Made by a program: the position numbers and the translations under genes | Shown here: positions 17,361-23,172 of the stretch, in pieces | How the letters are laid out: the number at the start of each line of letters is the position of its first letter | How positions within the stretch are numbered: position 1 is the first letter of the stretch | Notes under the pieces: generated by a model | The model's input: the letters and a program-made list of their open reading frames with translations, nothing else | Told to the model about the DNA's origin: nothing | The model's database searches: none | NCBI GenBank assembly: GCA_025964775.1 | Contig: JAOPYE010000040.1 | Location: forward strand, 62,001 to 126,000 | From: Marmoricola sp. | GTDB lineage: Bacteria > Actinomycetota > Actinomycetes > Propionibacteriales > Nocardioidaceae | Direction of reading: 5' to 3' | DNA length: 64,000 bases

Positions 17361-17436
17361 GGGGCTGTGGCGCAGTTGGTAGCGCGTCTCGTTCGCATCG
17401 AGAAGGTCAGGGGTTCGAATCCCCTCAGCTCCACCA
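17361..17436 (+). tRNA. tRNA-Ala(CGC)
   Basis: 76 nt including an encoded CCA. Acceptor GGGGCTG pairs with CAGCTCC and contains the G3:U70 pair that identifies alanine tRNAs; D-arm GCGCAGTTGGTAGCGC; anticodon loop TTCGCAT gives anticodon CGC (codon GCG); T-arm GGGGTTCGAATCCCC. The gene follows sepX by about 50 bp. Its 3' end from within the anticodon loop onward is duplicated at 23105-23148, marking it as an integration site. Confidence 0.97.
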
Positions 17437-17437
17437 A
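17394..17437 (+). repeat. Candidate attL: 3' end of tRNA-Ala, 44-bp direct repeat copy 1
   Basis: From the anticodon to just past CCA this segment matches 23105-23148 at 42 of 44 positions; the last 33 bases are identical. Tyrosine-recombinase elements typically integrate in the T-arm/3' end of tRNA genes and leave exactly this kind of duplication. Confidence 0.8.
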
Positions 17438-17801
17438 ACTTGCAGGTAAGCAGGGTGTCCGGAGTCCTAACCCAGGAGCTCCGGATGCCCTGTCACCACT
17501 TTGTCCGCACTTACGAGTCACGTAGCGGACCGGCCGCGTGTGACGGCACCTGTTCCTCCGGTTTGGTTCCCCGACGATCACGATCTAGATCCCGTGACCC
17601 AGCGGTGCGGAGGAGGACATAGCGGATACATGCGGCGATCTTGCCCGCCGTTTATTGATGTTGTCGCCGTACCAGCCAATCGGTGGTCTACTTGCCGAAC
17701 GGACGCTGCCGGGGTCGCCTCAACCCGAGGCGGCCACTCAGCGTCAAGAGAACTCATGCGGGCCCAGTACTCGCCGCCGACGTTCGCGGTTGGAGGGTCC
17801 C
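17437..17801. other. 365-bp tRNA-proximal island region without a supportable gene
   Basis: The frame of the large protein is open here (ORF-track start 17501) but has no ribosome site or sensible N-terminus. The region begins with the hairpin described separately and should hold the promoter of the adhesin gene; I cannot assign -35/-10 boxes with confidence. Confidence 0.5.
17453..17490 (+). terminator. Strong hairpin just downstream of tRNA-Ala
   Basis: GGGTGTCCGGAG pairs with CTCCGGATGCCC (10 of 12) and TCCT with AGGA inside it, 16 nt past the tRNA CCA. It lacks a U-tract. It lies on the island side of the att repeat, so it would be an element-supplied terminator for the tRNA, or an end-structure of the element. 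Confidence 0.45.
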
Positions 17802-17882
17802 ATGAGCGGCCGACTAAGTCTGACGCGTGCGCGCGGCAATTCGACCACGCCAATACGTTGCCGCCGAACGGGGCTGACGTGA
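17802..17882 (+). CDS. 26-codon upstream ORF coupled to the Ig-repeat protein
   Basis: MSGRLSLTRARG... has a strong Shine-Dalgarno (GGAGGG at 17792-17797, 4 nt before ATG) and ends in a TGA that overlaps the GTG of the large protein (GTGA). The large gene has no good ribosome site of its own, so this leader ORF probably delivers ribosomes to it and could gate its expression. The peptide is basic and shows no similarity I recognise. It is too short for the ORF track. Confidence 0.5.
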   Translation: MSGRLSLTRARGNSTTPIRCRRTGLT

Positions 17883-20800
17883 GCACTGCCCGCGGGCTTG
17901 TCGCTACCGGCATCGCCGGTGCATTGACCAGCGAGTCCCCCCGCCGGCGGGCCGTCGCAATCGCCATCGCGACGACTCTGTTGACAGGTGCCCTGGCCAG
18001 TATCGCTCTCGCGCCGCCCGCGGCTGCGACGAACCTGTACCAGTACTTTCCGCAGAACGGCGGCGGCACCGGCGCCGGTACCTGCAGCGCGGCGGGTACC
18101 TACGTGGTGCCCGCCGGGGTGGCGCTACTTGACGTCACGGCGTACGGACAGGACGGGATACATGGCTCGGGCACCGGCTTCGGGCTCGGCGGGCTCGGTG
18201 GCAAGGTGGTGGCCAGGGTCGGGGTCACGCCCGGTCAGACGCTGTGGGTGGCACCCAACTCGCTGGCCGTCGCCGGGGGGACGTCATCCGGCTTCCGGTC
18301 GGGCGGCAACGGGTCGCTGCTCTCGAGCGTCGACCCGGCTACGTACTGCGGAACGAACCATCCGGCAATGCCCGTGTCAGACGTGCTGGTCGTCGCCGCC
18401 GGCGGAGGCGGCGGCGGGGACGGGGTCGGCGGGGCAGGTGGTACAGGCGGCGCTGCGGGTCGGGGCGGCGGGGACGGTGGCAGCAATAGCGCAGCCGATG
18501 GCGGCGGCGGCGGTGCGGGCACGCAGACGGCGGGTGGTGCCGGCGGCTCTGGGGGCAGGTCGCTGCAAGAGTACTGGGGAGTCGCCGGCGCCTCGGGGCA
18601 GTACATGACTGGTGGAAACGGCGGGAACATCGGCGCCGCACCCAATGACAGCTCGGGTCAAGCGGCCGGAGGTGGCGGTGGATTCTTCGGCGGTGGCGGT
18701 GGCGGTGGCGGCGCCCAGTTTGCGGCCGTGGGCGGCGGTGGCGGCGGGTCGAACCACGTCATCACGTCGGACCCGTCGACCTACCCCCCGGACACGCCGC
18801 CCGGCGTGTTCTTCAACGGCTTCGCAGAGAACGGCGCGGAGATCGACATCACTCCGGTCTACGCCAGTACTACCGCGCCGGTGCACAGCGCTATCAACCC
18901 TGTTCCCCAGGGTCAGCAGGTGCGGTTGAGCACGGTCGTCACCCTCAGCGACGGCAGCTATCCGAATGACGGCGTCGTCGACTTCTACGACGGCAGCACG
19001 ATCGTAGGCACCGGCGGAGTCTCGGACTCCACCGGAATCGCCGCGGTCAGCGTCTCGTTCGCGACCCAGGGCGCGCACGACATCCAGGCGATGTACGACG
19101 GGACCGACCGACCGGGGGACCAGCACGACGCGGCCAGCTGGGCCGCGGATCCGCAGCTGATCCAGCAGGTCGGCCCGCCGCCGATCCCGCCGGCACCGCC
19201 GCTGGTGACCGAGAACCCGCAGTCCAGGGCGAGGTACTACCCGAGCGCCGGCTCCTTCAGTGCTGCCGCCCACGGCTTTCCGGCGCCCACTGTTCAGTGG
19301 CAGGAGTCCAGCGACGGCGGGCACAACTTCACCGACATCCCCGGTGCCACCAGCACCGCGCCCGACACGTCGAGTTCCTTCCCCGGTGCCGTCACCAGCG
19401 ACGTGCAGATCCCTGACGCATTCGACCTGTCAGGCAACCAGGTCCGTGCGGTGTTCAGCAACGCCTCGGGTGCTGCCACCACTTCGGCGGCGACCATGAC
19501 TGTCTTGCGGGAGCCGATCAACATCGTCCCCGCCGACGTGTCGGTGTTCCCCGGCTCGGCGGTGCCGCCGCTGACGGTCTCCTACCCGTTTCTACAGGGG
19601 TCGGTCGCCGACGAGGTGACGACGCCACCGACGTGCACGACAACTGCCACGCCCAGCAGCCCGCCCGGCAACTACCCGATCACCTGCGACGGCGCGGTCA
19701 CGCCCAACTACATCCCCACCTATCAGGACGGCACGTACACCGTCGACCCCACCAGCCCGCGGACCGCCTTCGATATACCTGGGGCAGCAACCGACTGGTT
19801 CGCCGGTGACTGGATCACTCTGTCGGCCGTGGGTGGCGTCTCGGGGAACCCGGTCGCCTTCTCGATCGACCCGGCGACGCCTCCCGGGATGTGCTCACTG
19901 GACGGCTCGACCCTGATGCTGGCCACCGCGCCGGCGCAGGCCGGTGACTGCCTGGTCACCGCAACCCAGCTGGGCGTCGCGCAGTCGGTGGCCCCGCCGG
20001 TCACCCTCGCCGTGCACGTGAACCTGCCGACCCGAGCGGCCACCCTGACCGTGCCGGCCACTGGCGCCGTGACCGGCAGCGACGTGCTGAGCGCGACCGG
20101 CTACACCGACGACGGCGACTCGTACACCGCCACCTCATCGATCGCCATCACACCAGCGCCCAGCGACGCCGGCGTCTGCTCGCTCAGCACGGTGGGCGGG
20201 GTGACGACCGTGAGCTACCTCGCCGTCGGCAACTGCACGGTGCACGCCCAGCAGCCGCAGGGAGCCGGCCGCGCTGGCGGCACGACGCAGCTGATCGCCG
20301 TCAATCCTCCGACGGCGCAGACGATCACCTTCTCGCTGCCGGCCTCCGCGCGGGCCGGTGACGTTGCGACGACACTGACAGGCACCGGAGGCGGCTCGGG
20401 TTCGCCGGTGGTGTTCAGCTCCGATTCGCCGACCGTGTGTTCGGTCGTCGGGACGACGTTGACCTTCCTTGCCGAGGGGACTTGCACGGTCACGGCGAAC
20501 CAGGCGGCCAGCCCCGGCTACGCCGCCGCCGCATCGACCCCGCACTCCGTGGCGGTCTTGCCAGGCATCGTGTTCAACCCACCGGCGACCGGCATTGCAG
20601 GCCAGAGCGACACCCTGACAGCGATCAAGGTGCCCTTGGGCCGCCCACCGGTCACCTACGCGCTGGCCGCGAGCAGCGGCGCCGGCGTCTGCCATCTCAG
20701 CGGCGCCAACAACTCCCAGGTGACCTATCTGGCGGTGGGGCCCTGCGTGGTCACGGCCAGCCAGGCATCGATCCCGGGGATCTTCATCGGGCCACCCAAC

Positions 20801-22762: not shown

Positions 22763-23104
22763 CACAAGGCCTTTGCCGTCGAGCTGAGTGGCAGGCCGCG
22801 GCCGTCGCCGTCCCGCGGACAAGCTTGCGGCGCGCCCAGCCAGCCAACCTGTAGGCCCGCGCCAGTCTGGGCACGGGCAGCGGCTCTGGAGCGCGATCCA
22901 TTGTTGGAGCCTTCTCATCATCAGTGGGTCGGAAAATTGTCACCATCGAGTCAGCAGATTGAAGGTCGAAGGGCCCCGAGAAGTGCAGAGAGATTCCGGT
23001 AAAGTGAGGCCCGTCAACGAAAGCGACTCCGGGCATTGCTGCAGGTCAGACCCTGTTTCTCCAAGTACCAGCCAGGTTTGGACGAGATGTGGATACCGTC
23101 TTCT
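22763..23104. other. 342-bp island end without a supportable gene
   Basis: Between the adhesin stop and the second tRNA-Ala end. Minus-strand ORFs here (for example 22749-23036) have no ribosome site or recognisable protein character. No integrase or excisionase remnant is visible. Base composition is more mixed than in the flanks. Confidence 0.5.
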
Positions 23105-23148
23105 CGCATTGAGACGGTCAGGGGTTCGAATCCCCTCAGCTCCACCAA
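23105..23148 (+). repeat. Candidate attR: truncated 3' copy of tRNA-Ala, 44-bp direct repeat copy 2
   Basis: 42 of 44 bases match 17394-17437; the two differences lie in the anticodon stem, where selection no longer acts. No acceptor 5' strand or D-arm precedes it, so it is not a working tRNA. The minus-strand ORF through it contains the GGAEGIRTPD peptide that always arises from antisense tRNA. Confidence 0.85.
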
Positions 23149-23150
23149 GA

Positions 23151-23172
23151 GGCGGCCCTTCGGGGCGGTTTT
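23151..23172 (+). terminator. Probable original terminator of the tRNA-Ala gene, displaced by the island
   Basis: GCCC-TTCG-GGGC tetraloop hairpin with outer partial pairing, followed directly by TTTT, two bases beyond the second att repeat. This is where the terminator of the uninterrupted tRNA gene is expected. Confidence 0.5.

Follow-up and report, generated by a model that had tools for sequence, protein, structure and literature searches.

The stretch of DNA analysed here, a 64-kb window, contains a 5.7-kb segment bounded by an intact tRNA-Ala(CGC) gene and a second copy of that gene's 3' end (Table 1). Compared by direct reading, the two copies agree at 42 of 44 bases; they differ at bases 6 and 11, and the final 33 are identical, which confirms the duplication described in an earlier sequence-only reading of the window. 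Across the 64 kb, with either strand included, these were the only two places within 16 mismatches of the 43-base tail, so a chance origin of the repeat is excluded. A search of the whole assembly found no further copy of the tRNA-Ala(CGC) tail on this contig. The terminator-like hairpin with TTTT reported after the second copy is borne out by its folding energy (-16.7 kcal/mol, z -2.5), and within the window the tRNA terminator is present after the second copy only. A generic terminator scan did not list this hairpin, probably owing to its short T run.

Table 1. Features of the tRNA-Ala(CGC) segment in window coordinates
Feature	Position	Strand	Remarks
tRNA-Ala(CGC)	17361-17436	+	intact; ARAGORN call
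Presumed attL core, tRNA 3' end from anticodon loop to CCA	17394-17437	+	direct reading
Left arm	17437-17512	+	homologous sequence lies 3' of the same tRNA in G192 (86%) and G024 (84%)
GGTAAG left-arm motif, +9	17445-17450	+	GGTCAG in G192, G012, G008, G020, G022
Long inverted repeat, 19 bp stem	17450-17493	+	-36.9 kcal/mol, z -5.7
Two direct repeats 11 bp apart, GTCACCAC at 17492 and GTCCGCAC at 17503	17492-17510	+	putative integrase arm sites, +56/+67
1627-aa secreted-type protein	17879-22762	+	signal-peptide-like N-terminus, Gly-rich region, Big_3_5, MBG_2 and He_PIG repeats, weak PxKF-like end
GTCACC..GTCAGCA pair, 11 bp apart	22939-22956	+	putative right-arm sites, -178/-167
Right arm and tail	22949-23146	+	73% identical over 199 bp to G144 tRNA-Ala fragment junction
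CAGGTCAG, -75 from tail	23042-23049	+	at -75 in G144; at -74 in G012 and G008 element 2
Presumed attR core, native tRNA 3' end, displaced	23105-23148	+	direct reading
Native tRNA-Ala terminator, displaced	23149-23180	+	hairpin and TTTT; directly 3' of the tRNA in G018, G019, G021

The segment has a single long open reading frame, which encodes a protein with Ig-like domains of the He_PIG, Big_3_5 and MBG_2 families. Its signal-peptide-like start was read from the sequence, and its PxKF-like C-terminus is a sub-threshold match. The cargo had been called a giant adhesin; the single 1627-aa Ig-repeat protein of secreted type stands, and the adhesin role is not established. A leader frame also proposed for the island could not be upheld as a gene, and its region has no family match. 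A search with the full protein through ~85,000 species genomes returned no close relative and only a remote repeat match, a 290-aa part of the protein gave repeat-level matches only across the genus, and no solved structure matching the protein was found. Elsewhere in the same genome, a 1761-aa protein has He_PIG repeats in common with it at 49-52%. The class of cargo is ordinary for the genus, with Big_3_5 proteins in 22 of 24 genomes and 32 domain matches in this genome. The GC content of the segment is not foreign, and no origin was identified for the stretch between the left arm and the protein gene (17513-17878); both points count against the reading of an integrated element that is favoured below.

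The protein gene could also be an old resident of the site, with an incidental tRNA duplication around it. A comparable arrangement exists in G007, where an 882-aa secreted ALK/LTK-type Gly-rich and Ig protein (L033:10179-12827, minus strand) lies immediately 3' of this tRNA and the tRNA is not duplicated. However, that protein matches the window protein in repeat regions only, at 33-37%, the genus has many proteins of this type, and none stands at the site in the other 15 relatives compared. We find this origin scarcely credible; the protein gene may instead have arrived as the cargo of an element, or after it.

Element arms at both ends

The 76-bp left arm has only two other matches among 299 family genomes, G192 and G024, both of other genera. 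An HTH_17 (excisionase-like) gene and a tyrosine integrase come next after the arm in G192, where the contig ends soon past this xis/int of the related element. The homology to the window ends at 17512 (+76), just past the two putative arm repeats and ahead of xis/int. These repeats occupy identical positions in G192, G024, G008, G020 and G012, within a fixed arm layout (GGTCAG at +9, a hairpin, and repeats at +56/+67) of which the window has every part. Their assignment as integrase arm sites is putative and comes from this conservation. Analogous left-arm hairpins occur in integrase-bearing relatives (z -4.6 in G192, -4.6 in G008 and -1.3 in G012). The window hairpin is very stable and lies just 3' of the tRNA; the arms of other elements have one in the same place with a different sequence. 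It may substitute for the displaced terminator.

The right end matches G144, a member of another genus, where the matching arm directly abuts a tRNA-Ala tail. In a search of the family genomes this match had an E value of 2.4e-6 without the tail (22763-23104) and 5e-26 with it. The GTCA[GC]C pair 11 bp apart is the sole strict pair in the 64 kb and has a counterpart at -177/-166 in G144. The G012 and G008 islands that have CAGGTCAG at -74 are integrase-bearing; random segments of the window show so long a run common to both at that offset in 0.3% of cases. The motif had been spotted before this was calculated, which makes the figure less strict.

The second tRNA copy might also be a native tandem pseudo-tRNA, with the protein gene having entered by some other route between it and the intact gene. 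Short partial tandem tRNA copies with terminators do exist in the genus: at tRNA-Ala(GGC), a second partial copy with its own terminator follows within ~190 bp (L006:4030-4300, on contig 29 of the same genome, and L064:6340-6540), and similar copies occur at the tRNA-Ala(CGC) locus of G021, G012 and G008, in the latter two at the distal ends. All look like decayed tandem tRNA genes. They keep D-arm-like sequence ~100 bp from the tRNA, however, whereas the window copy is preceded by an arm that has its homologous counterpart at an element junction of another genus, and the window tRNA is itself followed by an element arm. Because of these arm homologies we set the pseudo-tRNA reading aside as very improbable. 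Relatives that carry two tRNA copies and no adhesin, which had been put forward as a reason to doubt integration, were indeed seen (G021 and the distal ends of G012 and G008), and what they carry is a short tandem pseudo-tRNA or other elements, which differ from the junction in the window.

The tRNA-Ala locus in related genomes

A block of genes upstream of the tRNA (5-FTHF cyclo-ligase, GalU, MoeA, MoaC, MogA, GNAT and a membrane protein, named by eye) is kept together with tRNA-Ala in 18 of 18 relatives whose fetched locus held it, and also in G192 and G144. The DNA 3' of the tRNA differs among most genomes. The terminator behind the second copy in the window has a match immediately 3' of the tRNA in G018, G019 and G021. 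The constant upstream side, the variable downstream side and the terminator directly after the tRNA in three relatives together argue for integration. The earlier reading expected strains lacking the protein to join a single tRNA-Ala to the sequence from 23149 onward. As the main limit of the comparison, no relative examined had an empty site followed by the genes that lie downstream in the window. The neighbouring genes in G018 match the window at 48-54 and 62.7-64 kb instead and, since homology resumes this far away, the region beyond 23149 is itself plastic. Low-threshold tblastx comparisons between the loci gave mostly noise.

We compared the segment with tDNA islands of the Islander type (PMC4383910). 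It has an intact tRNA gene, a displaced 3' fragment more than 2 kb downstream in the same orientation, and a native 3' flank that has moved beyond the fragment. The anticodon loop is a known crossover subsite for tRNA-specific integrases (PMC4383910), and the shared repeat block starts there. The 3' part of the intact tRNA, from the anticodon loop onward, would accordingly be element-derived and form attL. The segment differs from Islander islands in one respect: the Islander filter requires an integrase gene inside, and here there is none.

Integrases beside a tRNA-Ala, which the sequence-only reading had suggested looking for, were seen in G192, G012, G008 and G017. The locus is a hotspot for integrase-bearing islands and for other islets that have no integrase. 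In G144 two islets of 3.9 and 6.4 kb, with no recognisable integrase, lie between tRNA-Ala and two tails; one encodes a collagen-like secreted protein, and the array (L098, L094) also carries NERD, HEPN and nucleotidyltransferase genes. A 3.8-kb segment between two tails in G002 has an integrase fragment. In G008 the arm of a second element, with its tyrosine recombinase, begins right behind a tail (L063:7150-7250), a junction that shows tandem accretion at tRNA-Ala and was seen in this genome only. The G012 island spans 74 kb from the tRNA to the distal tail and includes an integrase (L071-L074); by eye it has many CoA/lipid catabolism and mce-like genes and no evident phage genes.

The recombination module and present mobility

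The proposal of an island that has no integrase was fully supported, as nothing resembling an integrase or an excisionase was detected between the tRNA copies. The best relatives of the G192 integrase (58-69% identity) are in G012, G008 and G017, all beside tRNA-Ala. No integrase of this tRNA-Ala type (the G192, G012 and G008 kind) was found in the host assembly, which is 94% complete. The assembly does contain tyrosine recombinases of other kinds; their 3-kb loci have no similarity to the tRNA-Ala integrase. Since the tRNA-Ala type is missing from the assembly, the islet is probably stranded as long as no related element comes in. The 6% of the genome outside the assembly, or an unrelated integrase of the same specificity, could alter this verdict.

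Could the integrase never have been present in cis? The islet would then be a true satellite, moved by an integrase that is encoded on a different element and is specific for the same attP. Both arms look complete, the left homology ends just past the arm repeats, and G144 has other islets at tRNA-Ala that lack an integrase. In contrast, a satellite should recur as the same integrase-less element in several hosts alongside a helper integrase; this islet was found in no second genome, its own assembly yielded no helper, and the G144 islets differ from it in left arms and cargo. We consider the earlier suggestion of a satellite dependent on another element's integrase quite unlikely.

We favour, with a probability of about 0.85, a reading in which the 5.7-kb block is a stranded and perhaps re-mobilisable islet, an element that integrated at the tRNA, kept its att ends and lost xis and int. 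A tyrosine-recombinase element would have integrated at tRNA-Ala(CGC) with crossover in the anticodon loop. The element's own 3' copy would have restored the tRNA, and the native 3' end would have ended up, with its terminator, 5.7 kb further downstream. Afterwards xis and int would have been lost by deletion or by recombination, either inside the element or in a tandem array, so that a single gene for a secreted Ig-repeat protein remained between the two att ends. Both parts of this account had been proposed beforehand. Integration at the tRNA 3' end is well supported by the displaced terminator and by the homology of both ends to junctions at the same tRNA elsewhere, and loss of the recombinase by a left end that follows the arm of an intact element until just before xis/int and then stops. 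The order of events, the role of the protein gene as cargo of the element and any present-day competence for recombination are our reconstruction. The islet would now be immobile alone, and possibly excisable through an incoming related integrase or adjacent integration.

The closest known kind is the cis-mobilizable element (CIME), an element whose att ends were kept after loss of its integration genes, as in the ICESt1-related examples (PMC5704250). Like these, the islet has no integration genes and no conjugation or transfer genes (its one supported gene is not a transfer gene), and it appears to retain complete attL and attR (cores and arm repeats) in the absence of xis and int; the G008 site, in addition, shows tandem accretion. 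Unlike CIMEs, its parent was not identified as an ICE or IME, there is no accretion in this genome, and mobilization is predicted only. Some islands at ssrA in Dehalococcoides likewise have no integration module and lie beside integrase-bearing ones at the same site (PMC3146451). They too are bounded by an RNA gene, there the tmRNA, and its 3' repeat; a serine recombinase acts at that tmRNA, in contrast to the tyrosine-integrase elements at tRNA-Ala.

The locus offers a clean example: each end of the islet, which has no integrase, is matched to elements at the same tRNA, one of them with xis/int, and the comparison locates where the recombination module would have gone missing as the ends stayed. 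Should the ends still be able to recombine, the integrases of other arriving islands could pass surface-protein genes from one species to another. Tools that demand an integrase overlook such islets. A broader and speculative idea, which we regard as rather unlikely, is that tRNA-Ala serves this actinobacterial family as a depot for small islets that lack an integrase, keep complete att arms, encode single surface proteins (of the Ig/Gly-rich type here and the collagen-like type in G144) and are shuffled by visiting integrase-bearing islands.

Just outside the right end, a DUF7715 protein is encoded directly past the displaced terminator (23182-23724, minus strand), in a lower-GC stretch of ~63%. 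Also just outside attR, 23559-24580 holds a pair formed by an MntA-like nucleotidyltransferase and a HepT-like protein, of the type VII toxin-antitoxin kind, with a PDC-S09 match. The HepT frame matches part of its family only, and its C-terminus looks altered.
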